DNA of 45,134 bases from Candidatus Desulfobia pelagia (GTDB taxonomy: Bacteria > Desulfobacterota > Desulfobulbia > Desulfobulbales > SURF-16), in NCBI GenBank assembly GCA_014382295.1, contig JACNJZ010000065.1:7085-52218 (forward strand), in the 5' to 3' direction. The notes below the pieces were generated by a model. That model did not search any database. It saw only the letters and a program-made list of their open reading frames with translations, and was not told the origin of the DNA. Of the stretch, positions 2,309 through 42,040 are shown piece by piece (positions within the stretch are counted from its first letter, which is position 1; every line of letters starts with the position of its first letter). A program made the translations under genes and the position numbers.

Positions 2309-4246
2309 TTGTTTTCCATGAAAATACACACTGGCGTCCATGCAGTCCCTCCCGAAATCGTTCTTGATTTCCTGCAGAAGTCCCTTCCCTTCAATGAGCT
2401 TGACACCAGAACACTTCAAAAACTGGCCCAGCAATGCATTATTGAGTTTTACCCCAAAGGAACTCTTATCTTTCAGCAGGAAGTTACAGAAGTTACCTAT
2501 TTCTACCTGATTCAAAAAGGCGGGGTTAAGATTTACCTTAAAGATAATGAAGGTGATATCACCTTAAAAGATTTTCGTGGAGAAGGGGAATATTTTGGTG
2601 CATTGCCTCTTATCCATGGCACCACTGCCAATTTAAATATTGAAACAGTAGAAGACACTTTCTGTTTCCTTTTCAGCAAAAAAGCATTTCAGGAGTTGCT
2701 GGATGCAGCTCCCAAGGTTTCCCAGTATTTTCTCCGCAGTATGTCAGAAAAACTGGTGAAAAATGCCTATGCTGAATTACGGCAGCATAAAGTCTGTGCC
2801 AAAACTGAAAGCTCTCTTTACCTCTTCAGCGTCCAACTCAATGACATCATTACAAGAGAGGCCCAGACAATTTCAGGTGAAGATTCTGTACAGAACGCAG
2901 CAATTCACATGGCCAAAATGCATATTGGATCTTTACTGGTCGAAAGTCCTGGAGGGGAAATTATTGGTATCATTACAGACAGCGATCTGCGAAAAAAAGT
3001 TGTTGCTGCCGGACTTGATTACCAGACTCCTATTAAAAATATCATGTCCTCTCCGGTCAATTCCATTGAATCCCATGCTGTCTGTTTTGATGCCCTTCTT
3101 AAAATGATGCATACCCAAACACACCACCTTGCTGTAAAAAAACAGCAAGATACTATCGGGGTTATAACCACCCATGATTTAATGGTACTGCAGGGCCATT
3201 CTCCCCTTTATCTTTTCCGTGAAATCCAGTCACAGCGAAAAATTGAAGGCCTATACAAAATGTCTCCCAAAGTTCCTCTTGTAGTCAGGACCCTTATTGA
3301 AGAGGGAGCTAAGGCTAACAATATCACCCGCATGATTACCATTATTAATGACAAGATTCTCGACAAGCTCCTTACCCTGCTTATAGAAGAATTAGGTCAG
3401 CCGCCAGTGCCTTTCTGCTGGCTGCTCATGGGAAGCGAGGGAAGAAAAGAACAGACCTTCTGGACAGATCAGGATAATGCTCTAGTATACCAGAATCCGG
3501 AAGATGAAAAAGATCGCCAGACAATAGAAAGCTATTTCAAAGAATTTGGTGAAAAAGCAATCCAGCACTTGGTAAAATGCGGTTTCCCTGCATGTCCCGG
3601 CAACATTATGGCCTCAAATCCAAAGTTACGGAAAGATATGGCCGGCTGGATTCGTGAATTTGACCACTGGATGCTTTCCCCTGATCCTGAGGAGATATTA
3701 AACTCAACTATCTTCTTTGATTTCAGGGCCGGATTTGGAGACAAAGACCTGGCAAAAAATCTACGACTGCGACTCTGCCGGATTGCTCCTAAACAGGATA
3801 TTTTCTTAAGGGAACTGGCAAAAGACTGTCTTACAATTCGGCCCCCTCTCTCCTTTTTCAGAAATCTTATTGTCGAGAAGAATGGTGACCATAAAAACAC
3901 CTTAAACATCAAAGAAAGTGGAATAGCCCCTGTTGTTGATTTTGCCAGACTGATGGCATTAAAACATGGTATAAGAGAGAGTAATACACTTGAGAGACTG
4001 CAGCTTCTGGCAGACCAGAGCCACATCAGCAGGGAACTCTACACAGAAAGCACAGAAGCGTATGAATTCCTTATGCAGCTGAGACTTGTGCATCAACTTC
4101 ACCTTCTGGAACTCGACCAGACTCCTAATAATTACATAAACCCTGGAGACTTGTCGGATCTGGAGAAATCAACTTTAAAAGAAGCGTTTGAGGTCATCCG
4201 TAGAATACAAAGCACAATTCAGGATGAATTTCGCCTGAGAGATTAA
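2309..4246 (+). CDS. Cyclic nucleotide-binding / CBS pair / DUF294-type nucleotidyltransferase protein (start may be ATG 2318)
   Basis: cNMP-binding-like N-terminus (YPKGTLIFQQ…), two CBS repeats, LMGSEGRKEQTFWTDQDNALVY nucleotidyltransferase motif. ORF track start is TTG. Confidence 0.85.
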   Translation: MFSMKIHTGVHAVPPEIVLDFLQKSLPFNELDTRTLQKLAQQCIIEFYPKGTLIFQQEVTEVTYFYLIQKGGVKIYLKDNEGDITLKDFRGEGEYFGALPLIHGTTANLNIETVEDTFCFLFSKKAFQELLDAAPKVSQYFLRSMSEKLVKNAYAELRQHKVCAKTESSLYLFSVQLNDIITREAQTISGEDSVQNAAIHMAKMHIGSLLVESPGGEIIGIITDSDLRKKVVAAGLDYQTPIKNIMSSPVNSIESHAVCFDALLKMMHTQTHHLAVKKQQDTIGVITTHDLMVLQGHSPLYLFREIQSQRKIEGLYKMSPKVPLVVRTLIEEGAKANNITRMITIINDKILDKLLTLLIEELGQPPVPFCWLLMGSEGRKEQTFWTDQDNALVYQNPEDEKDRQTIESYFKEFGEKAIQHLVKCGFPACPGNIMASNPKLRKDMAGWIREFDHWMLSPDPEEILNSTIFFDFRAGFGDKDLAKNLRLRLCRIAPKQDIFLRELAKDCLTIRPPLSFFRNLIVEKNGDHKNTLNIKESGIAPVVDFARLMALKHGIRESNTLERLQLLADQSHISRELYTESTEAYEFLMQLRLVHQLHLLELDQTPNNYINPGDLSDLEKSTLKEAFEVIRRIQSTIQDEFRLRD

Positions 4247-4279
4247 TTCAAAGGTACCTTGAAAGGGTGTTGACCTAAT

Positions 4280-4996
4280 ATGCGTTATTGGCCCTTTGCC
4301 AAATGGACATCAAAAGCAAGACACCCTGTTTTCCGAAAAAACCATGATTTTTTCAAGGAACTCGACCAGGATCAGCCTATCGAAAGCTATGATTATGTTG
4401 TTTTTGATACAGAACTCACAGGTCTCAGTAATAATCAGGATGAAATTATCTCAATAGGTGCTGTTCACGTTAAAGATCTTAAAATCCATGCAGGAGAGGT
4501 CTTTCACTCCTATATCCGCCCCCACACAAAATTTGATGCAACAGAAAGCACTTTTATTCATAGAATCACCCCGCAACAAATAATTGACGCTCCAAAATTA
4601 AAACAGATAATGCCCCAGTTTATTGAATTCTGCGGCCCGTCACTCCTTGTTGGCCATTATGTTGGCCTGGATATGAAATTCTTTAACAGAGCGGCCCAAA
4701 TTCTTTTTGGCAGCATAATCAAGAATCCGTGCATAGACACCATGTATCTTGCCCAGGCCTATACCGAAAAATGCTGGACACAGTATCACGATCAGTACAA
4801 TCTGCAGATATCCTACAACCTGGGAGACCTGAGCGAAGCATACGGACTGCCTATTTTCAAACAGCACGATGCCCTGAATGATGCCATACAGACAGCATAT
4901 CTCTTTATCTTCCTGATAAAACAACTGCAGAAGCAAGGATTGGTATCTTTAAGAGATATTTTCCAGGCGAGAAGCAGCTTGAACAAACTTTTCTGA
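4280..4996 (+). CDS. 3'-5' exonuclease, DnaQ/DEDDh family
   Basis: VVFDTELTGL (Exo I), HYVGLDMKFFN (Exo II), KQHDALNDAIQTAYLF (Exo III); 33 nt after the DUF294 gene. Confidence 0.85.
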   Translation: MRYWPFAKWTSKARHPVFRKNHDFFKELDQDQPIESYDYVVFDTELTGLSNNQDEIISIGAVHVKDLKIHAGEVFHSYIRPHTKFDATESTFIHRITPQQIIDAPKLKQIMPQFIEFCGPSLLVGHYVGLDMKFFNRAAQILFGSIIKNPCIDTMYLAQAYTEKCWTQYHDQYNLQISYNLGDLSEAYGLPIFKQHDALNDAIQTAYLFIFLIKQLQKQGLVSLRDIFQARSSLNKLF

Positions 4997-5009
4997 ATCG
5001 ACACCGGCT

Positions 5010-6053
5010 CTACATGAGACGTCTGAATTCCACTCTTCTGTTTCTCGTTCTGTTTTCGAGGGTTGTATTGGGAAAAAGCGGCTGACTGGGCCCCTGATAT
5101 GACACTTCAAGCCTGGCCGGATCGACATTACAGCGTGTCTCGAGATAGGCTTTCACAGTATGAGCCCGCAGCCTTGAAACATACATATTAACTTCCACAG
5201 TGCCTGTATTGTCCGTATGACCGACGATCTCAAACCTCATTCCCCTTAAATCATCACTCTGCAGTGCCTGACAAATTACAGTGTCGAGAAGGGTCATTGC
5301 TTCTTCAGTGAGAGCGCCGGAATCCATTTCAAACTGAATCGGCATATGCATAGATTGCACTTTTTTGCCTGGAAGCAATTGATCGGATGCGGCGTCTTCC
5401 CGAATCATACCTTTAATAAAATCATCCCTGCCGACATCACTTTGCTGAGTAGACTTTGTTGTCACAGCAACCTTCTCCAGTCTGCCATTACCGGGATCTG
5501 CCTGCTGTTTCACTTTTTCTGCGGCAACGATGGTTTTTTGCTGAGGCGGTTGAACCTTCTGAACCGTCTTGACAGGTTTTGCCTCAGGCAAAGGAACAGC
5601 TGCTTTCTGGGAAGACCTGCTGCGAATTTCCTGGAGAGATCTCTTGGCCCAGACATTATCAGGATCAAGGCTGAGTCCTTTTTCATAGGCGGCAACAGCC
5701 CGCCCCACCTCTCCCAGTTCTTTATACATGTCACCCATACCCATGTATGCCTTTGCAAAGTTCTGATCAAGGGATACTGCCTTCCGATAATACTCGAGGG
5801 CTGTATCATACTTCCTGAGCCTTTCCATATTATATGCGTAATAATATGTTATCTCAGGGTCATCAACGCATTCAAGAATAGCTTTTTCAAGAAATTCCTT
5901 CCTTTCAACCACGCCTTTCAGTTTCTTAAAATCAACCCGAGCCCTGACGCAATCGGCGGCAGAAGCAACTTGCTGAAACAATATCACTGATGCCACAACG
6001 CAAACCAGAATAAAAACAGGCATGTTTGTTGTGAATTTTCTCCATATCTCCAT
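5010..6053 (-). CDS. TPR repeat + C-terminal OmpA-like peptidoglycan-binding protein
   Basis: TPR-like repeats (AKAYMGMGDMYKELGEVGRAVAAYEKGLSLDPDN); OmpA-type EIVGHTDNTGTVEVN…SRLRAHTVKAYLE…NRTRNRRVEFR. Confidence 0.85.
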   Translation of the reverse strand: MEIWRKFTTNMPVFILVCVVASVILFQQVASAADCVRARVDFKKLKGVVERKEFLEKAILECVDDPEITYYYAYNMERLRKYDTALEYYRKAVSLDQNFAKAYMGMGDMYKELGEVGRAVAAYEKGLSLDPDNVWAKRSLQEIRSRSSQKAAVPLPEAKPVKTVQKVQPPQQKTIVAAEKVKQQADPGNGRLEKVAVTTKSTQQSDVGRDDFIKGMIREDAASDQLLPGKKVQSMHMPIQFEMDSGALTEEAMTLLDTVICQALQSDDLRGMRFEIVGHTDNTGTVEVNMYVSRLRAHTVKAYLETRCNVDPARLEVSYQGPSQPLFPNTTLENRTRNRRVEFRRLM

Positions 6054-6059
6054 ATTATT

Positions 6060-6923
6060 CTACTGCCTTTTAATTTTATTAAGTCGGAGATGCTCAATAA
6101 CTCTTGCCAGCACTCCTATTTCATCGTTGGTCTGATGCTGAATACTTTCATCAAGAAATTTTCCATGAATTATTTCTTCGGTACGATCACTTAAGTATTC
6201 GACCGGCTTGATAATGCTCCTGTCCATAAAGAGGGCCACTGCGAGCAAGACCATAAAAAAAGATCCAACACCGACAAGGAACAGGATCCCAGCTGACCTC
6301 TTTGCTTCCTGCATCGCCTTTTGAATTGAGACATAAACGATATAAGCCGATACCGTTTCACCAAGTTTCCAGTTATAGCCACTCTCGGTCCCGTATATTT
6401 CAATCTGGTCCTTGGGTGCATCCATAGGGTCTCCATGACAACGCAAACATTTCTTCGACTCCACCTTGATAGGATATGCCATATAGAAGAATTTCTCATT
6501 GCCTTTTTCTATAACACCTTCCATTTCCTTCAAATCAGAACGCTGTTGAAAAGCATTGATAATGCTGAGTTCACTCACATCAGCTCTGTTTTTCTCGTAC
6601 AACGGATCAATGGTTGCCTGCTTAAAATGATAATCACTGTTCTTGGTTTCGAAAATGTCCCATATTCCCCGGGTTGCAACAAAACCGGACATCAGTTCAG
6701 GATAAAAACGATTTTCCTCCACCAGTTCGAGAATCAGAGCACGCTGATGGTCCTTGAAATACTGCCTATAGGAAATGATATAATCAAAAAGAAGTTGCCC
6801 TTTATTCCTCGCTTCAAACAACGCGTTGCGTTCACTCAACTTATAGCTGGCAACACCAATAAATATGGTTGCCACAAGGCTGAACAGCCCCATGATAAAA
6901 ATCAACTTGAAACGGATACCCAT
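6060..6923 (-). CDS. DUF3365 (Tll0287-like) c-type heme sensor protein with HAMP domain, no output domain
   Basis: N-terminal TM, KKCLRCHGDP (CxxCH), second TM, HAMP-like segment, ends about 10 aa later. Confidence 0.75.
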   Translation of the reverse strand: MGIRFKLIFIMGLFSLVATIFIGVASYKLSERNALFEARNKGQLLFDYIISYRQYFKDHQRALILELVEENRFYPELMSGFVATRGIWDIFETKNSDYHFKQATIDPLYEKNRADVSELSIINAFQQRSDLKEMEGVIEKGNEKFFYMAYPIKVESKKCLRCHGDPMDAPKDQIEIYGTESGYNWKLGETVSAYIVYVSIQKAMQEAKRSAGILFLVGVGSFFMVLLAVALFMDRSIIKPVEYLSDRTEEIIHGKFLDESIQHQTNDEIGVLARVIEHLRLNKIKRQ

Positions 6924-8011
6924 TAATTCTCTCCTGTTACAGCGTCTACACCAATTACTTTTCCTAAATCAAGAATTGGAAAATCCTCCGGGGATACAAA
7001 GAAAAACATGACAATTCCAAAAATTATAAAAAGAAGAAGAAAATATACCAGGTATATTCCAAGCATACTTGCCCTTTTCTTCCTGACCCGGGGAAGCCTT
7101 ATTGAGATTTCCGGCGCTGGCGCATCCTGAATGGTTGAAGCTACGGGAGACTCTTTCACCTCCTGATGAATGCCACGCGGAAGGTGACCAGCTGCCCCTG
7201 CGAGATTTGGAGTAATCTGCAGTTCATCGGCACATTCCTGAATAATGTCTTCATCAATAACGGCTTTCTCTTCAACAAATCCGGTAAGCAGTGCACGGTC
7301 ACAGATAATATTAATCAGACGAGGTGTTCCTGTTGAAAACAGATATATTTCGTAAATTGCCTTATCAGTAAATATCTGCTGCTCTGATCCGGCAATTTTC
7401 AGACGGTGGGCAATATATTTTTTAACTTCATCTTCTGTGAGCCGGTCAAGGCTGTAATTAACAGTAATCCTCTGTCTTATTGCCTTATTTTCGGGCTTCA
7501 AAAGGATATCGTTAAATTCCACCTGGCCGACAAAAAAGATATTGAGCAGCTTAACATGCTCTCTTTCAATATTTGAAAGAAGACGAATTTCTTCAAGGAT
7601 TTCACTGCGTAGACGCTGAGCTTCATCAACAATGAGCAGGACCTGCTTCCTGTCAGTATATGCCTTCTCCAGAAACCTGGTCAGCTCAAAGAGAAATTCC
7701 ACTTTTGTTTCAGGCATTTTCGGTAATTGAAATGCCTTGGATATATATCTATAAAAATCAAGCTCATCCAGCCTGGGATCCGGAATCTTTGCAAAAACAA
7801 CATCACTGCCAAGGCTGTTGACCAGGGCGTTGATAAGTGTTGTTTTTCCAGTACCGACCTCCCCGGTAAGCAGCAGAAAACCCTTGTTGTCCAAAACACC
7901 ATATTTCAGTGTTGCAAAGGCTTCCTGATGCTTTTCGCCCAACCAGAGAAATTTTGAATCAGAGGTAATCTGGAAAGGCTTTTCGTTTAATTTATAAAAA
8001 GAAAGAAACAT
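6923..8011 (-). CDS. ExeA/GspA-like AAA ATPase with a C-terminal TM helix
   Basis: Starts MFLSFYKLNEKPFQITSDSKFLWLGEKHQEAFATLKYGV; Walker A GEVGTGKTT; Walker B VLLIVDEAQ; TPRLINIICDRALL; TM near the C-terminus. Confidence 0.85.
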   Translation of the reverse strand: MFLSFYKLNEKPFQITSDSKFLWLGEKHQEAFATLKYGVLDNKGFLLLTGEVGTGKTTLINALVNSLGSDVVFAKIPDPRLDELDFYRYISKAFQLPKMPETKVEFLFELTRFLEKAYTDRKQVLLIVDEAQRLRSEILEEIRLLSNIEREHVKLLNIFFVGQVEFNDILLKPENKAIRQRITVNYSLDRLTEDEVKKYIAHRLKIAGSEQQIFTDKAIYEIYLFSTGTPRLINIICDRALLTGFVEEKAVIDEDIIQECADELQITPNLAGAAGHLPRGIHQEVKESPVASTIQDAPAPEISIRLPRVRKKRASMLGIYLVYFLLLFIIFGIVMFFFVSPEDFPILDLGKVIGVDAVTGEN

Positions 8012-8100
8012 GATAAATTTACAAGAAGTCGTGATTTAAATTATTGCCATCAGAAGTCTCAATAACATATCAAGACTGACTCGGCGTATGATTGTTTTTC

Positions 8101-8172
8101 ATTTGGGATTTGGCCTTTCGGATTGTGGAAAAATCATCAGATACCCGCATTCCCATATCCGAAATCCCAAAT
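8101..8172. repeat. Imperfect inverted repeat ATTTGGGATTT … AAATCCCAAAT
   Basis: 8101-8111 is the exact reverse complement of 8162-8172; inner TCGGAT / ATCCGA also pair with a bulge. Confidence 0.6.
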
Positions 8173-8196
8173 CACCTTTAATCCCTTGTTAAGGCC

Positions 8197-10686
8197 CTAA
8201 TCAACCTCAATACCCCAGATTTCCCTGGCATATTCTTTTATTGTTCGATCACTGGAGAATTTACCCATTCGTGCTACATTCAATATTGATTTTCTGGCCC
8301 AGTGTTTTGTATCACAAAACGCCCGGCTTATTTTTTCCTGACATTCCAGGTACGACTCCAAATCAAGAAGTAACAGATAAGGATCATTCTCATCCAACAA
8401 GCTGTCAGCAATAGAGCTGAAGAGGTCAGTATCCCCCCTGCTGAAAACCCCGGAGCGGATACTGTCTATTGCTTCAGAAATTACCTTGTTTGCAAAATAG
8501 ATTTGATATGGGGTCCTGCTTTTGTGAAGTTTCTCATACGCAGCCTCTTCTGCCGTCAGTCCGAATATAAAAATATTCTCATCCCCAACCTCTTCACGGA
8601 TTTCAATATTTGCCCCATCCAGTGTGCCAATGGTTAAAGCGCCATTCAGGGCAAATTTCATATTTCCCGTGCCTGAAGCCTCTGTACCTGCAGTAGAAAT
8701 CTGTTCGGAAAGATCAGCTGCAGGAATTATTTTTTCTGCCAGCGAAACATTATAATTAGAGAGAAAGACAACCTTGAGCACATCTCCGACACGAGGATCA
8801 TTATTGACCACATCAGCCACTGATGATATCAATTTGATTATCAGCTTGGCCTTGAAATAGGATGGGGCGGCTTTCCCGGCAAAGATAACTGTCCGGGGCG
8901 TAAATTTACCAGCACCCTCTTTTATGATTCGTTGATAGAGAATGATAACATGAAGAATATTTAACAGTTGGCGTTTGTATTCATGAATGCGTTTCACCTG
9001 GATATCAAACATCGAGTCGAGATTTACATCAATACCACACTCTTCTTTGATCAGGCTGGCCAGCCTCTTTTTGTTTTCGTATTTTACCTGCCGCCATTTC
9101 TTCTGAAAGGAGGCATTCCCGGCTTTCTTTTCAATTTTCCGCAACTGATCAAGATCTGTAACCCAGTCATAGCCAATTTCACTGCCGATCAATGCGGCAA
9201 GCCCAGGATTACTTTTCAATAACCAGCGACGAGGTGTAATACCGTTTGTTTTACTGTTAAACTTTCCAGGGTAAAGCTCATGAAAATCCTTAAATATCCG
9301 CGTTTTCAGCAGCTGGGTATGTAATGCTGCAACTCCATTCACAGAATAGCTTCCTATAATTGCAAGATGAGCCATCCGAATCCTTTTGACTTCACCTTCA
9401 CTTATAATTGACATTTCACGAAGCTTACGGGTATTTCCTGGATATAATGTCGCCACCTTGGCAAGAAAACGCCTGTTAATTTCATAAATAATTTCAAGGT
9501 GCCGCGGCAGCAGCCGGCCCATCATGTCCACCGACCAGGTTTCCAGTGCTTCCGGCATCAGGGTATGGTTTGTATAGGCAAACGTTTTGGTACTGATATC
9601 CCAGGCTTTCTCCCAGCCCAGCCCCTCCTGATCCATTAGAAGCCGCATGAGTTCAGGAATGGCGATAGCCGGATGAGTATCGTTAAGCTGGACTGCAACC
9701 TCATCATAAAAGCTGTCAAAGGTTTTATTCTTCTTTGTGTAGCGGCGAAAAATATCGCTAAAGGTTGCAGCAACGAAAAAATACTGCTGTTTCAACCGAA
9801 GCTCCTGTCCTTCTCTTATATCATCAGAGGGATACAGCACCTTTGAAATGGTCTCAGATTTAACCTTGCTCTGCACAGCCTTAACATAATCTCCTATATT
9901 AAAGGAGGAGAGATCAAGTTCACGGGAAGATCTGGCTGTCCAGAGTCGCAGATTAATAACATGATCATTGTTAAAACCCGGCACCAGAGTGTCACAGGCC
10001 ATTGCCATGACATCTTCTGTATCGACCCATTCCTCACGGTAATTCCCATCATCATCCTGGTAGCTGTTTACGCGGCCATAAAAATGAACAGGATAGACAA
10101 AGGAAGCCCGCTCAAACTCCCAGGGCGTCCCATATCGAAGCCAGTTATCAGGGGTTTCGACTTGGAATCCATCAACCAGCTTCTGATAAAAAAGACCATA
10201 TTCATAACGTATGCCATAGCCATAGGCCGGGATTTGCATGGTAGCGATGGAATCCATAAAACAGGCAGCGAGACGGCCAAGACCGCCATTTCCGAGACCG
10301 GCATCCTCTTCAATGTCCCGAATTGTTTCCAGATCATACCCGAGCTGCTCAAGAGCCTCGGTAACTTCATTCATCAAACCCATATTAATGAGAGAATTAC
10401 CTAATGACCGGCCCACCAGAAATTCGAGGGAAAGATAATAAACCCGTTTCTTTTTTTTGGCATAAACATTTTTCTGCGTAGTAATCCATTTCTCCACCAA
10501 TACATCCCGCAGAGCATAAGCCAGGGCTTTATAGACATCCCTGTTACCAGCCCTCTGGGGATCACGACCCTGGAAACTCATGAGATGATGAAGAATAGTC
10601 TGTTTAAACTGATCAACACTGGTAGATCCAAAAATGCAGGCATAGGGATGCGGAGCAACAACTGTATCCAATAGAGTCTTTTTCAT
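8197..10686 (-). CDS. glgP: Glycogen/maltodextrin phosphorylase (likely ATG start 10686, not the TTG at 10743)
   Basis: LSLEFLVGRSLGN, EDAGLGNGGLGRLAACFMDS, and PLP site EQISTAGTEASGTGNMKFALNGALTIGTLDGANIEI; AAGGA just upstream of ATG 10686. Confidence 0.95.
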   Translation of the reverse strand: MKKTLLDTVVAPHPYACIFGSTSVDQFKQTILHHLMSFQGRDPQRAGNRDVYKALAYALRDVLVEKWITTQKNVYAKKKKRVYYLSLEFLVGRSLGNSLINMGLMNEVTEALEQLGYDLETIRDIEEDAGLGNGGLGRLAACFMDSIATMQIPAYGYGIRYEYGLFYQKLVDGFQVETPDNWLRYGTPWEFERASFVYPVHFYGRVNSYQDDDGNYREEWVDTEDVMAMACDTLVPGFNNDHVINLRLWTARSSRELDLSSFNIGDYVKAVQSKVKSETISKVLYPSDDIREGQELRLKQQYFFVAATFSDIFRRYTKKNKTFDSFYDEVAVQLNDTHPAIAIPELMRLLMDQEGLGWEKAWDISTKTFAYTNHTLMPEALETWSVDMMGRLLPRHLEIIYEINRRFLAKVATLYPGNTRKLREMSIISEGEVKRIRMAHLAIIGSYSVNGVAALHTQLLKTRIFKDFHELYPGKFNSKTNGITPRRWLLKSNPGLAALIGSEIGYDWVTDLDQLRKIEKKAGNASFQKKWRQVKYENKKRLASLIKEECGIDVNLDSMFDIQVKRIHEYKRQLLNILHVIILYQRIIKEGAGKFTPRTVIFAGKAAPSYFKAKLIIKLISSVADVVNNDPRVGDVLKVVFLSNYNVSLAEKIIPAADLSEQISTAGTEASGTGNMKFALNGALTIGTLDGANIEIREEVGDENIFIFGLTAEEAAYEKLHKSRTPYQIYFANKVISEAIDSIRSGVFSRGDTDLFSSIADSLLDENDPYLLLLDLESYLECQEKISRAFCDTKHWARKSILNVARMGKFSSDRTIKEYAREIWGIEVD

Positions 10687-35926: not shown

Positions 35927-36160
35927 ATGGATTCAGAAAAACAGAAAAATTCCAGGCTGATCATCTTCTTTTTCATAGGGGTGATCCTTCTCAATTACCC
36001 TATTCTTTCTCTATTCAGCGACAACGAAAGAAACGTTTTCGGCATTCCCTTACTCTACGCCTTTGTTTTTACCACATGGGCCCTGCTTATTTTTATTACC
36101 GCCCTTACTGTCAGGTACACCGGGAATAAAACTTCCCAGCACACCGACAAGGCACAATAA
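35927..36160 (+). CDS. Small two-TM membrane protein preceding the transporter-like receptor
   Basis: LIIFFFIGVILLNYPILSLFS…LLYAFVFTTWALLIFITALTV; stop adjacent to the downstream ATG at 36160. Confidence 0.7.
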   Translation: MDSEKQKNSRLIIFFFIGVILLNYPILSLFSDNERNVFGIPLLYAFVFTTWALLIFITALTVRYTGNKTSQHTDKAQ

Positions 36161-39054
36161 TGCTGTGGAAGTATGTGGTCATACTGGTCGCCTTTGCCTA
36201 TCTCGGTGTAATGTTTGGCGTTGCTTACTACGCAGAGAAACGTGCTGCTGCAGGACGCAGCATTATCAACAATCCCTGGGTCTACTCTCTTTCCATCGCT
36301 GTATACTGCACGACGTGGACCTATTACGGAAGCGTTGGCCGGGCAACCACATCCGGACTGGAATTCCTTGCCGTTTACATAGGCCCGACCCTTATGGCCT
36401 TTCTCTGGTGGCCTGTCCTGAAAAAAATAGTCCGCATCTGTAAAACTCACCGGATTACAACCATTGCCGGATTTATTTCATCACGGTACGGCAAAAGCTT
36501 AACCCTGAGCATCCTGGTCACTGTTTTTTCAGTTGTCGGCATTATGCCCTATATATCTCTGCAACTGAAAGCTGTATCCACCAGTATAAATGGACTGCTT
36601 CAACATCCGGAGATGATAACGCCTGCTCCTTCCATTGTATTATGGTCTGATACCGCTTTTTATGTGGCCCTTATCATGGCAGCTTTTACTATTATTTTCG
36701 GAGCCCGAAACCTGGACACTTTTGAAAGGCATGAAGGAATAGTTGCCGCTGTCGCATTTGAATCACTGGTAAAACTACTGGCATCCCTCGCAGTTGGAAT
36801 ATTCGTTGTATACGGTCTGCATAACGGAATTTTAGACATTTTCGATAAAGCCAGAGCCGTCCCCCATCTGGACACTCTTTTCACCATGGATGGCAATGAC
36901 TACCTGCGATGGAGCACCATCACTTTTTTATCTGCAATGGCAATTATGTTTCTTCCCCGCCAATTTCAAATGATGGTGGTTGAAAATGTAAATGAAAATC
37001 ATATTAAACAGGCCGCATGGATTTTTCCGCTCTATCTTTTCGCCATCAATCTTTTTGTATTGCCAATCGCCTTCAGCGGCATATTGCGTTTTCCATTTGG
37101 AGGCGTCAATCCTGACACCTTTGTCCTGTCCCTCCCGCTTTCAGCGCATTATCACGTCCTTGCCATGTTCGTTTTTCTTGGCGGACTCTCTGCCGCGACT
37201 GCAATGATTGCTGTAACCAGCATTGCAATCAGCACGATGGTAAGCAATGACCTCATTCTCCCCTTAATGATGCGGTTTGGTGTTCTCCGGATTAACCGAC
37301 AAAAAGATTTCAGCGGACATATCCTGAAAATAAGGCAGATAACTATTATTATCATTCTGCTGCTTGGTTATATCAACTTCCGCTGGATAAGCGGCTCCTT
37401 GACCCTGGTCACAATGGGCCTTATCTCTTTTGCCGCTGCCGCCCAGTTCGCGCCATTGATTTTATGTGGAATTTTCTGGAAAGGCGGAACCCGTCTTGGT
37501 GCAATAACCGGTCTCAGCGGTGGTTTTGCCGTCTGGACATACACCATGCTTCTCCCTCTTTTTTCCCAATCCGGCTGGCTGCCAATCAGTTTCATTGAAG
37601 AAGGCCCTTTTGGCATTTCAATCCTGAGGCCTTATCAGTTATTCGGCCTGGAGGGATTTGGATGGCTTGAACACGGAGTTTTCTGGAGCCTTCTGGTAAA
37701 TATCGGAGGATACCTTATAGTCTCTCTTGTTGCTGAACACAGAAGCAGCACAGGGCATATACAGGCAGAGTTATTTGTAGACGTCTTTCGGCCAGAACGA
37801 CGCACCTCTTCATGGCAGGATAATTTCGCAATATCTGACCTCCAGAAACTTTTATGCCGCTTTTTAGGGGATGAACCGGTTGAAAGAATATTCTCTCTAT
37901 ACAGCCGGGCCTTTGCCGGATCAATCGAAGAAAAGGGGGACCTTGTTGATTATGCGGAAAAAATACTTGCAGGCTCCATTGGCTCCGCCTCGGCCCGGCT
38001 TGCTGTGGCATCTGTTGTACAGCAAGCCACCGTTATTAAAGATCCTATAACCGCAGAGGAATCAATACGGGAAAGTGAAGCACGATTACAGGCTATAATG
38101 GACAACACTTCCACAGCTATCACCCTTAAGGATACCCAGGGCCATTTTATTCTCATCAATCGCAAATTTTCAGAGATGGTCGATATGTCAAACGAAGAAA
38201 TCGTTGGAAAAACCGACTACGACATTTTCCCGGAAAAACTTGCAGATAAATACAGAGAAAATGACAGGAAAGCGCAACAGGAGGGCTTCCCGATACAGGT
38301 CGAAGAAACTATCCACCATCCTGATGGACGCCATACATATCTCGCCATCAAGTTTCCCCTCTACGACACAAGCAGAACACCATATGGCATCTGCAGCATA
38401 GCCACAGATATTACAGAACGAAAACGCAGTGAATTTGATCTGCAAAAGAGCCATGACCGTTTAAAACAGGCCCTAGAAGATACTATTACCGCCATTGCAA
38501 GAGCCGTTGAAGCACGGGATCTCTACGTTGCCGGCCACCAGAGACGCGTCGCTCAGCTCGCTGTGGCCATAGCCAGGGAAATGGGACTCAGCGATGATCA
38601 GATTGAAGGGGTCCGCATGGGTGCGATGATCCACGACATAGGAAAAATCCATCTCCCTGCTGAAATTCTAAACAAACCGGCCCGATTGCTTGACACTGAA
38701 TTCGCCCTTGTCAAAAGCCATTCCGAGGTAGGCTACGAAATCCTGAAGGATGTTACATTGCCATGGCCTGTTGCCCAGATTGTCCACCAGCACCATGAGC
38801 ACATTGATGGTTCCGGTTACCCCCATGGACTGCAGGAAAATGATATCCTTATCGAATCAAAGATAGTTTGTGTAGCGGATGTCGTCGAAGCAATGGCAGG
38901 CCACCGCCCTTATAGACCGGCAAAAGGGATTCAAAAAGCCCTGAAGGAAATTGAAAAACATAAAGGGATCTATTATGACCCCAAAGTAGTTGAGGCATGC
39001 CTGCGCCTCTTTAATGAAAAAATATTTACCTTTGAAGAAAAATTGCACTCTTAA
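36160..39054 (+). CDS. SLC5-like (sodium:solute symporter) domain + STAC-like linker + PAS + HD-GYP fusion
   Basis: ~13 TM SSS region (SIAVYCTTWTYYGSVGRATTSGLEFLAVYIGP); DYAEKILAGSIGSASARLAVASV; PAS (TAITLKDTQGHFILINRKFSEMV); HD-GYP (VAGHQRRVAQLAV, MIHDIGKIHLPAEIL, HHEHIDGSGYPHGL). Confidence 0.9.
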   Translation: MLWKYVVILVAFAYLGVMFGVAYYAEKRAAAGRSIINNPWVYSLSIAVYCTTWTYYGSVGRATTSGLEFLAVYIGPTLMAFLWWPVLKKIVRICKTHRITTIAGFISSRYGKSLTLSILVTVFSVVGIMPYISLQLKAVSTSINGLLQHPEMITPAPSIVLWSDTAFYVALIMAAFTIIFGARNLDTFERHEGIVAAVAFESLVKLLASLAVGIFVVYGLHNGILDIFDKARAVPHLDTLFTMDGNDYLRWSTITFLSAMAIMFLPRQFQMMVVENVNENHIKQAAWIFPLYLFAINLFVLPIAFSGILRFPFGGVNPDTFVLSLPLSAHYHVLAMFVFLGGLSAATAMIAVTSIAISTMVSNDLILPLMMRFGVLRINRQKDFSGHILKIRQITIIIILLLGYINFRWISGSLTLVTMGLISFAAAAQFAPLILCGIFWKGGTRLGAITGLSGGFAVWTYTMLLPLFSQSGWLPISFIEEGPFGISILRPYQLFGLEGFGWLEHGVFWSLLVNIGGYLIVSLVAEHRSSTGHIQAELFVDVFRPERRTSSWQDNFAISDLQKLLCRFLGDEPVERIFSLYSRAFAGSIEEKGDLVDYAEKILAGSIGSASARLAVASVVQQATVIKDPITAEESIRESEARLQAIMDNTSTAITLKDTQGHFILINRKFSEMVDMSNEEIVGKTDYDIFPEKLADKYRENDRKAQQEGFPIQVEETIHHPDGRHTYLAIKFPLYDTSRTPYGICSIATDITERKRSEFDLQKSHDRLKQALEDTITAIARAVEARDLYVAGHQRRVAQLAVAIAREMGLSDDQIEGVRMGAMIHDIGKIHLPAEILNKPARLLDTEFALVKSHSEVGYEILKDVTLPWPVAQIVHQHHEHIDGSGYPHGLQENDILIESKIVCVADVVEAMAGHRPYRPAKGIQKALKEIEKHKGIYYDPKVVEACLRLFNEKIFTFEEKLHS

Positions 39055-39087: not shown

Positions 39088-40131
39088 TTACAAAACAGGC
39101 ACATGGAAAAGGTATTTCTGGTAACTGAAAACCACGCCATCGGAGACAATTTCCTCCACCCTCAGATGAGAGTCCAAGGTGTCACCTTCCCGCACTATTT
39201 TTCCATTTATACTGGCTAAACGAGAGGCTGGCTTTTTGGCGAAATAGACATGGGCACTAATCTGAAATTCCGGAAGCTCCCCCCGCACAGCCAAGGGCAG
39301 CTGCATGAGATGAAGCGGTTTCCTTCCTGCGCTGTTTTTTTCAGTATTCAATGCAGAGGTTTGTGACATAGCCTTTCTGCGCTCCTGACCCGAAATACTT
39401 TTCGATACTTCCAATTGTTCTTCAGGTAACGTTTCCGTTTCTATAGCTTCCGGTTCTGCCGCAAGAACCGAATCTTCCGGGGAAACAAGATGTTCCTGTT
39501 CCAGTACCACCTCCTCAACAACTTCTTCAATAACCTCATCCTCTTCAATGGCACCAATGAACGCTACTTCCTGAACAGGATCAATATCCACATCTTCAGC
39601 AGTGGCAGCATTTACAGATTCAGGACCACTAGCGTCTGTATCTTCCTGGTTCGTATCTCTATCCATACCCTTTAAGATTTCACTATCAGCTTCTTCAATA
39701 ATACGATCAGGGACAACAGAGACCGGTGCAGATTCTTCCCTGGCTGGCAGAGCCTTCTCTTGACCCTGGCTGGCTGCAATGTTTTCAGCCATAGCTGGAA
39801 TAACAGTCTCCGGACTATTCCCCATGGTTGGTGGTGAAACAACATGTAATGGTTGAGGCTCAACTTCTCTTTCTTTTTCCAGAACCATTACTGTCTCAGG
39901 CGTATCGGGATTATAAACGACAGTCTGGGGTTCTGGTACAGACTGATCCGGACGCATGACAACAATCAAAATAACCGCATTCAGGAGTAAAATTGCCGCA
40001 AGGAAATAAGGCCACACTATTTTCTTGTTATCTTCAGGTGGACGTTCTGACTGAACGGTATTGAGATCCGGGATATGTCCCTTTTGCCTTTTTTGGTCAG
40101 ACTTTTTAAGGGCTTCAAGAATATAGGACAT
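39088..40131 (-). CDS. General secretion pathway protein B (GspB/ExeB)-like
   Basis: MSYILEALKKSDQKRQKGHIPDL N-terminus, TM, acidic linker, GELPEFQISAHVYFAKKPASRLASINGKIVREGD C-terminal domain. Confidence 0.8.
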   Translation of the reverse strand: MSYILEALKKSDQKRQKGHIPDLNTVQSERPPEDNKKIVWPYFLAAILLLNAVILIVVMRPDQSVPEPQTVVYNPDTPETVMVLEKEREVEPQPLHVVSPPTMGNSPETVIPAMAENIAASQGQEKALPAREESAPVSVVPDRIIEEADSEILKGMDRDTNQEDTDASGPESVNAATAEDVDIDPVQEVAFIGAIEEDEVIEEVVEEVVLEQEHLVSPEDSVLAAEPEAIETETLPEEQLEVSKSISGQERRKAMSQTSALNTEKNSAGRKPLHLMQLPLAVRGELPEFQISAHVYFAKKPASRLASINGKIVREGDTLDSHLRVEEIVSDGVVFSYQKYLFHVPVL

Positions 40132-40132
40132 C

Positions 40133-41968
40133 TTACTTATCCTCTGGTATATCAATTAACTTTGGCACGTTGATACCGCATGCCGAATTAAGATGAATTA
40201 TGGTTTGAGGGCCGACGATGCCGTCCGGCACGAGATTCCTGGAAAACTGAAACTGTTTTACCTGGTTGGCTAAGTCACTATTAAACGTAATGGGATTCTG
40301 TGAACTAGGAGACCGCCCCTGGATGAAGGCCAGTTTTTTATCCAGCCATTCCACATTGACAGCAGTATCACCCGGCTTTATGGCAGAAATGTATTCGAGT
40401 GGTTTCGTCCATAACAGGGAATATTCACCGAACCACCGTGATCCGATATCTTCAATCGTAACAATTTTCTCCTCAGACCCGATGACAAGTGTTGCCGTCT
40501 GGCCATGGAAGGCGGTCAGGGCAGCAAAAAAACGATCCCCTTTATCGTCATAAAGAGTCAACACCGCAGGTCGATTGAGATCCACCAGGCTATCGAGACT
40601 CCCCTGGAGATCCAGGCAACGCAAGTTGTGCGATTCGGCAAAAGAACATACCGATGTCCCGCTGCCAGGAATATATGGAACTTGCCAACTGGCAAAAAGA
40701 GCCGTATAGGCCATTCCAGCACTTTCCTTGATCGACTTGTCGCCAGGCCATTCCAATGGAGAAATATCCCGGGATAGTACCCGAATATCAGTCTCACTTA
40801 TTTCTATTTGAATCCCTGGTTCGTCACCATCTGCACCTGGCGTCTCCAGCATTGCCACAGGCATCGCCTGACCTTCAAGACCTACCATCTCCATTTGCAT
40901 GACCGGCTCAACCGGCTCCGCCATGTCACCTTCTTTCAGCTCCATCACAGGACCCACAGGGTTTACATGATCTATTGGAGTTATCGGTTCAACCTTATCC
41001 AGAACATCTACCTGTGAAACAGATTCCTGAATAAAAAATGCGCCTATCTGCGGATTCTGATAATAATAGGCGGCTGCCAATACCGATCCACTGAAGAGAA
41101 GAAACATGGCCGCCAGTGACCAGTAGGACCTTTTTCTGTTTTTCTGCGGATGGTCATCTATATCACCGAAAACTTCCCGTGCTGCTTTTTTCAGAATGGA
41201 TGTGCTTACCTGGTCCTGGTCGTGCACATAGGTACCAAGAAGAGCCCGATCACAAATAATATTGATCAGGCGAGGAGTGCCTTTACTTAACTGATACAGA
41301 AGCTTTAGAGTTGAAGGTGGGAAAATTTTGCTTCGGCCTTCGGCTATTGTTAAACGATGAGCAACATAGGACCCTACCTCCCTTTGAGACAGAGGCTCAA
41401 GATGATACCGGGCAGTTATTCTCTGGGCAAGTTGACGCAACTCAGGACGCTGCAGCATCTCCTTCAGTTCAGGCTGTCCCAGCATAATAATCTGAAGTAG
41501 CTTGCGTTCGTTGGTTTCCAGGTTGGTAAGCAGCCGTATCTGCTCCAGAACATCAACACTGAGATTCTGGGCTTCATCTATAATCAGTACTGCTTTTCGT
41601 CCTTTTGCATGAGACCGTAAAAGAAAGCTGTTAATGTGATCAACAAAGACCTTGATACTATTAAATTTTTCCTGTTGGTCTATACCAAATTCTTCGCATA
41701 TTGTGGCCAGGAGTTCTTCAACCGTTAATTTAGGATTAAAAATGAATGCAATATCGGTATCCTCAGGAACCTGCTCCAGAAGACAACGACAGATCGTCGT
41801 TTTCCCCGTTCCAACTTCACCAGTGAGCAAAACAAAGCCGCTTTCACTCCTGATGCCATAGAGAAGATGAGCCAAAGCCTCCCTGTGGCGTTCACTCATA
41901 AATAAATAATGAGGATTCGGGGCAATAGAAAAAGGAAGTGAGGTAAAACCGAAATATTCTTCGTACAT
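40133..41968 (-). CDS. ExeA/GspA-like AAA ATPase with C-terminal peptidoglycan-binding domain
   Basis: MYEEYFGFTSLPFSIAPNPHYLFMSERHREALAHLLYG; GEVGTGKTT; IIDEAQNL; TM; C-terminal NPITFNSDLANQVKQFQFSRNLVPDGIVGPQTIIHLNS. Confidence 0.9.
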   Translation of the reverse strand: MYEEYFGFTSLPFSIAPNPHYLFMSERHREALAHLLYGIRSESGFVLLTGEVGTGKTTICRCLLEQVPEDTDIAFIFNPKLTVEELLATICEEFGIDQQEKFNSIKVFVDHINSFLLRSHAKGRKAVLIIDEAQNLSVDVLEQIRLLTNLETNERKLLQIIMLGQPELKEMLQRPELRQLAQRITARYHLEPLSQREVGSYVAHRLTIAEGRSKIFPPSTLKLLYQLSKGTPRLINIICDRALLGTYVHDQDQVSTSILKKAAREVFGDIDDHPQKNRKRSYWSLAAMFLLFSGSVLAAAYYYQNPQIGAFFIQESVSQVDVLDKVEPITPIDHVNPVGPVMELKEGDMAEPVEPVMQMEMVGLEGQAMPVAMLETPGADGDEPGIQIEISETDIRVLSRDISPLEWPGDKSIKESAGMAYTALFASWQVPYIPGSGTSVCSFAESHNLRCLDLQGSLDSLVDLNRPAVLTLYDDKGDRFFAALTAFHGQTATLVIGSEEKIVTIEDIGSRWFGEYSLLWTKPLEYISAIKPGDTAVNVEWLDKKLAFIQGRSPSSQNPITFNSDLANQVKQFQFSRNLVPDGIVGPQTIIHLNSACGINVPKLIDIPEDK

Positions 41969-42040
41969 AGTAAATTCAACTAGGAAATTATGTGTTGATA
42001 GTAAACGGTTATCGGCATATTCCAGCAACCACGTCTATTA

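Follow-up and report, generated by a model that had tools for sequence, protein, structure and literature searches.

The stretch analyzed here, a 45,134-nucleotide window from Candidatus Desulfobia pelagia (contig JACNJZ010000065.1, positions 7,085 to 52,218), carries two adjoining genes on the forward strand: one for a 77-amino-acid membrane protein with two transmembrane (TM) helices (window positions 35927 to 36160) and one for a 964-amino-acid protein (36160 to 39054) that joins an SLC5 transporter-like domain and a STAC domain to a PAS and an HD-GYP domain. They meet in a TAATG overlap, in which the stop codon of the small gene (36158 to 36160) shares one base with the start codon of the fusion gene (36160 to 36162). 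Both genes were delineated from their open reading frames (ORFs) together with AlphaFold2 (AF2) models, supplemented by Pfam, phmmer, and profile searches for the fusion gene and by a small-ORF family profile for its partner. A Pfam scan of the 964-residue protein returned PAS_4 (residues 648 to 756, E = 7e-20; 38101 to 38427) and HD_5 (residues 780 to 943, E = 2e-36; 38497 to 38988), neither HisKA nor HATPase_c at E < 0.1, and no model that captured the SLC5 domain. The top NCBIfam match of the C-terminal part is a cyclic di-GMP (c-di-GMP) phosphodiesterase response-regulator family, at a score under that family's cutoff.

The front end was recognized by comparison with CbrA of Pseudomonas. 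In a phmmer search of the PDB, CbrA chain 10ed_A was the top match (E = 8e-68, residues 7 to 471), and a profile of 23 related front-end sequences aligned with CbrA residues 9 to 592, covering its solved SLC5 and STAC domains from one end to the other (E = 2.5e-112). The SLC5 domain, of the LeuT fold, occupies residues 1 to 530 (36160 to 37749), and the AF2 model of this region has mostly confident TM helices consistent with 13 TM segments. The STAC domain follows at residues 558 to 625 (37831 to 38034), with four predicted helices (558 to 569, 571 to 582, 589 to 607, and 609 to 617) and the L.G..G...A motif, here LAGSIGSASAR. Between PAS and HD-GYP runs a helical linker (residues 757 to 779; 38428 to 38496) that is conserved among orthologs and modeled with a helix spanning residues 758 to 807. 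Foldseek searches with the AF2 model matched the front to SGLT1, SMCT1, NIS, CHT1, and SiaT and the back to PmGH and DvhD. A sequence-only reading of the window had proposed an SLC5 transporter front end, a STAC-like linker, a PAS domain, and an intact-looking HD-GYP domain in a protein devoid of kinase motifs; each of these calls was borne out, and the order SLC5, STAC, PAS, HD-GYP without a kinase is a real feature of this locus.

Full-length homologs at 74 to 77% identity are found in four other genomes of the window's order, all of them draft metagenome assemblies or draft genomes: a Desulforhopalus metagenome-assembled genome (MAG) (L009), a Desulfobulbaceae MAG (L010), a Desulfobia MAG (L011), which is apparently the same locus as L089, found in a genome belonging to the window's genus, and a single genome of another family (L101/L137). 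L009 and L011 are almost identical and may represent one lineage. Given these close homologs, the fusion is not a chance event. The window, L009, and L011 also have three downstream genes in common, encoding a cyclic nucleotide-binding/DUF4388 protein, a CDP-alcohol phosphotransferase-like protein, and a third product; the GspB-like and ExeA/GspA-like type II secretion genes that lie between the fusion gene and the DUF4388 gene in the window (39088 to 42028) are missing at the corresponding place in L009 and L011. Recurrence at this level of identity, together with conserved gene order in two of the genomes, argues against an assembly artifact. We rejected both a chimera and a pseudogene, since five genomes carry the fusion, its flanks are conserved in two, and the nonsynonymous substitution rate is well below the synonymous rate, which is saturated. 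The sequence-only reading had called for a survey of transporter-HD-GYP proteins without HATPase; the combination proved rare and was confined to one order in the genomes sampled. About 1,100 other genomes (samples of 395 from the phylum, 194 from the order, 399 Pseudomonadota, and 198 Nitrospirota) yielded no further HD-GYP version when the best few candidates per genome were scored at thresholds of 1e-60 or 1e-130; with phyla sparsely sampled, these searches show rarity, not absence. Viral contigs gave no match, and the plasmid matches listed include no HD-GYP version and one GGDEF-EAL version from Azoarcus.

The HD-GYP domain has a complete set of ligands (H793, H825, D826, K829, H854, H878, H879, and D907), of which H825, D826, and K829 lie in the HDIGK metal motif (38632 to 38646) and H878 and H879 in HHEHIDGSGYP (38791 to 38823), which also supplies the GYP signature. 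The equivalents of the PmGH ligands, which we take to be numbered H189, H221, D222, H250, H276, H277, and D305 along with K225, in agreement with our alignment, are present in all five orthologs. Where PmGH has E185, a third-metal ligand, the window protein has Tyr789 and every ortholog likewise has Tyr, so a binuclear rather than a trinuclear site is expected. HD-GYP is also the best-conserved part of the protein across orthologs, at 84 to 87% identity versus 71 to 75% for SLC5. The HD, HH, D, and K residues and the GYP motif are shared with PmGH (PDB 4mcw) and V-cGAP3 (5z7c), from which the window protein differs in having a transporter as input and, relative to PmGH, in the Tyr at Glu185. 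The window's genome encodes at least 16 GGDEF domains, contains two c-di-GMP-I riboswitch aptamers whose scores exceed the gathering score (L154 on contig C65 and L155 on contig C120), and therefore has a c-di-GMP network. The residues of the HD-GYP domain predict that it hydrolyzes c-di-GMP. Cleavage of another cyclic dinucleotide, such as 3'3'-cyclic GMP-AMP (cGAMP), strikes us as very unlikely: V-cGAP3, a 3'3'-cGAMP phosphodiesterase, is among the best PDB matches of the domain, and cGAMP signaling is known in this phylum, but both GEMM riboswitches of the window's genome have G at the position that presumably specifies c-di-GMP. It is likewise highly doubtful that information flows inside out, with the HD-GYP domain chiefly binding c-di-GMP so as to gate either the transporter or some partner, in the way that DvhD acts on its protease. 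DvhD (9rc0), a structural neighbor from another sulfate reducer, Desulfovibrio, is also built on a PAS-HD-GYP module and is a c-di-GMP receptor that has lost its ligands and its activity (PMC13090378). Its input is a periplasmic dCache domain, that of the window protein an SLC5 domain. In DvhD, however, the HD and HH ligands have become SQ and MN, whereas all five orthologs keep every ligand. We retain a c-di-GMP phosphodiesterase as the preferred assignment.

The small upstream protein, which the sequence-only reading had put forward as a possible accessory subunit, finds support in profile, structural, and comparative evidence, the contact itself being predicted. AF2 models it as a two-helix hairpin (mean predicted local distance difference test score of 68), and a profile built from SLC5-STAC-associated small ORFs, with HD-GYP loci excluded, matches it at E = 1.2e-18 with the database size nominally set to 1000. 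Under a strict automatic criterion applied to loci with enough upstream sequence, a small ORF precedes the SLC5-STAC gene in 75 of 114 cases, often overlapping it or lying no more than 4 bases away. The aligned proteins keep the motif N..P...F...GIP....F..W..I across phyla, with the N..P, G[IL]P, and W positions conserved in Desulfobacterota, Nitrospirota, Pseudomonadota, and Bacteroidota. Because a small ORF stands in front of most sampled SLC5-STAC genes and these motifs cross phyla, the sequences indicate that the two-TM partner is a general component of the class and not a Pseudomonas oddity. The profile match and cross-phylum alignment rule out chance resemblance, and weak matches of the 77-residue protein to DUF5080, MAG0110, DhaM, and cbb3 oxidase were set aside.

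In Pseudomonas-type genomes, tblastn located ORFs for CbrX upstream of cbrA. Alignment of CbrX with the small-protein family by hhalign gave a probability of 70% (E = 4e-5), a level reached by none of 150 block-shuffled CbrX profiles; the family profile recovered no CbrX chain from the PDB. The 77-residue protein is probably a remote CbrX homolog. CbrX is translationally coupled to cbrA, appears by cryo-electron microscopy as a two-helix hairpin against TM3/TM8 of CbrA, and copurifies with CbrA in detergent (PMC13022988); growth on histidine is possible without it. That the small protein is merely a translational leader coupling expression, and no subunit, seems improbable: work in putida offers a point in favor of this view (PMC9100948, PMC13022988), but the motifs are kept at the protein level across phyla, and CbrX remains attached to CbrA in detergent (PMC13022988). 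We continue with a CbrX-like subunit.

That the SLC5 domain binds or transports a solute is predicted from the conservation of most pocket residues and of K205. The CbrA pocket residues Y51, W55, F71, Y75, and F406 are identical in the fusion protein, and K205 (codon at 36772 to 36774) aligns with CbrA K196, a lysine retained in all but one of 18 members checked; K196 occupies the Na2 site and is tied to proton coupling (PMC13022988). One SLC5-STAC kinase (L085) has Glu instead of the Na2-site lysine, and its ion coupling might differ. Thr replaces both S53 and A56 of the CbrA pocket, which also holds for CrbS-like proteins and for nearly all of the remaining members checked, and F248 is Ser, a position occupied by Ser or Ala in CrbS-like and most other members. 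These changes make histidine unlikely, and the ligand is probably a different solute.

Gene neighborhoods offer an analogy for what that solute may be. Sister kinases adjoin genes for an RNase_T exonuclease, a CBS-DUF294 protein, and a response regulator, and similar sets occur in Nitrospirota and Pseudomonadota. One such locus lies in the window's genome (L136, positions 2655 to 9328; contig C94) and encodes a PAS-exonuclease, an 81-amino-acid small protein, an SLC5-STAC histidine kinase 56% identical to the fusion protein over residues 1 to 624, a response regulator, and a CBS-DUF294 nucleotidyltransferase. Exonuclease and CBS-DUF294 genes are known beside acetate symporters and in acetate-uptake loci. 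CrbS, in turn, controls acetate use (PMC5715377). From this gene set and the acetate role of CrbS, our best guess for the most likely ligand is a short monocarboxylate, for instance acetate or pyruvate. Adjoining the HD-GYP gene there is neither an exonuclease/CBS-DUF294 set nor a response regulator. At positions 2309 to 4996, about 31 kb from the fusion gene, the window encodes a cyclic nucleotide-binding CBS-DUF294 nucleotidyltransferase and, after it, an RNase_T exonuclease; elsewhere these two genes flank SLC5-STAC kinases. No symporter was recognized adjacent to the pair.

Among sampled genomes, the same front end leads to HisKA-HATPase, GAF-SpoIIE (L065, L074), and PAS-GGDEF-EAL (L132) outputs, and in the relatives examined SLC5 and STAC remain joined regardless of the output. 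Matches of the fusion protein to kinase-type front ends of close relatives end mostly at residues 616 to 631, and SLC5-less PAS-HD-GYP proteins of the phylum match from about residue 627 to 633, with identities reaching 52%. The most economical interpretation has PAS-HD-GYP acquired as one unit right after STAC, which would place the joint at about residues 626 to 630 (38035 to 38049). On SLC5-STAC trees, the HD-GYP front ends form one clade, sister to L132 and nested among kinases (ultrafast bootstrap, 100; Shimodaira-Hasegawa-like approximate likelihood ratio test, 99); L173 falls elsewhere, so a single clade of all c-di-GMP outputs is unsupported. L132 (positions 4258 to 7980; Nitrospirota genome G1130) is an SLC5-STAC-PAS-GGDEF-EAL protein with intact GGDEF and EAL motifs, a small two-TM partner at 4033 to 4257, and a PAS domain only 20% identical to that of the window. 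In L173 (positions 5992 to 9183 of Azoarcus sp. KH32C plasmid pAZKH, NC_020548), SLC5-STAC runs straight, with no PAS, into a degenerate GGDEF domain plus an EAL domain; the start given in the annotation (6241) lies about 80 codons too far downstream, and the small partner (5793 to 5987) is listed there as a hypothetical protein. Both resemble the window system in front end, small partner, and c-di-GMP turnover output but have GGDEF-EAL in place of HD-GYP.

Eight proteins from other families of the phylum (L065, L068, L070, L071, L073, L074, L075, and L078) form one clade of SLC5-STAC-GAF-SpoIIE (PP2C phosphatase) architecture, with SpoIIE detected by Pfam in L065 and L074 and the other six assigned from absent kinase motifs and grouping; a small two-TM ORF lies upstream there too. 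The window genome's family also has 1771-amino-acid SLC5 sensor kinases (L133, L134), and L133 carries at least four PAS domains, GAF, HisKA, HATPase, and REC. STAC is described as C-terminally joined to signaling domains, histidine kinases and GGDEF among them, in a passage of PMC5715377 that cites Korycinski 2015. A literature search combining STAC, SLC5, or solute symporter with HD-GYP returned no report, and the Korycinski 2015 survey may list such architectures. Judged by its sequence relationships, SLC5-STAC with an HD-GYP output adds a rare, conserved, and new type of output to the SLC5-STAC transceptors already known.

CbrA/CbrX (PDB 10ed) is the closest described arrangement, sharing the order of 13-TM SLC5, STAC, and PAS, the Na2-site lysine, and a small two-TM protein whose gene lies immediately upstream, its stop codon overlapping the next start codon. 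The window protein differs from CbrA in having HD-GYP in place of DHp-CA, an SLC5 domain only about 30% identical, T/T/S at pocket positions S53/A56/F248, and no response regulator alongside. The acetate and pyruvate hybrid kinases CrbS/MxtR and RpuS share the SLC5-STAC front end and the pocket Thr residues, with CrbS-like proteins about 39 to 40% identical to the window protein over SLC5-STAC; they belong to a different subclade and have a kinase plus REC output, whereas the window protein has HD-GYP and does not group with CrbS.

We favor, with modest confidence, a single-polypeptide transceptor in which SLC5-STAC conformation sets the rate of c-di-GMP hydrolysis, assisted by a CbrX-like subunit; its ligand, catalysis, sign of regulation, and subunit contact are as we infer them. 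The SLC5 domain would bind a small organic solute, possibly importing it with protons, and the STAC bundle, docked beneath the transporter, would sense its conformation, much as helices 3/4 of the CbrA STAC domain are inserted in the transporter base (PMC13022988). The signal would then run via PAS and the helical linker, reach an HD-GYP dimer, and alter its hydrolysis rate, with the 77-residue protein packed on SLC5 and translated in step. A stronger version, in which solute flux or binding directly gates hydrolysis in the same chain, the CbrX-like subunit is obligatory, and SLC5-STAC is a general swappable input plugged repeatedly into c-di-GMP makers and breakers, kinases, and phosphatases, we regard as tentative.

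Several observations weigh against this transceptor model. CbrA lacking SLC5 still signals when strongly expressed, and STAC deletions have weak or no phenotypes (PMC7918813, PMC5715377), so coupling from SLC5 to output is unproven in known members. No acetate or pyruvate gene was recognized beside the HD-GYP locus, and PAS and HD-GYP are poorly predicted in the AF2 model, because the alignment there is shallow, with few covering sequences. The activity of SLC5-less CbrA at high level, along with the dependence of CbrA output on PAS (PMC7918813), would also fit an SLC5 domain that is an ordinary transporter or membrane anchor, with PAS reading a cytoplasmic signal and HD-GYP activity independent of transport; PAS is intact here and apparently arrived with HD-GYP. 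We consider this rather unlikely, as SLC5 and STAC are kept together with every output in the relatives examined and STAC packs on the transporter in CbrA (PMC13022988), and we prefer the transceptor model.

An output domain that is a metal-dependent hydrolase working on a free small molecule would offer a simple enzymatic readout of how a transporter signals through STAC, a question that CbrA and CrbS also pose, without kinase/response-regulator chemistry. If the model is true, nutrient sensing would be tied directly to biofilm and motility signaling in Desulfobulbales-type, mostly sulfate-reducing bacteria, and nutrient uptake could control lifestyle signaling directly via a rare, conserved receptor variant.
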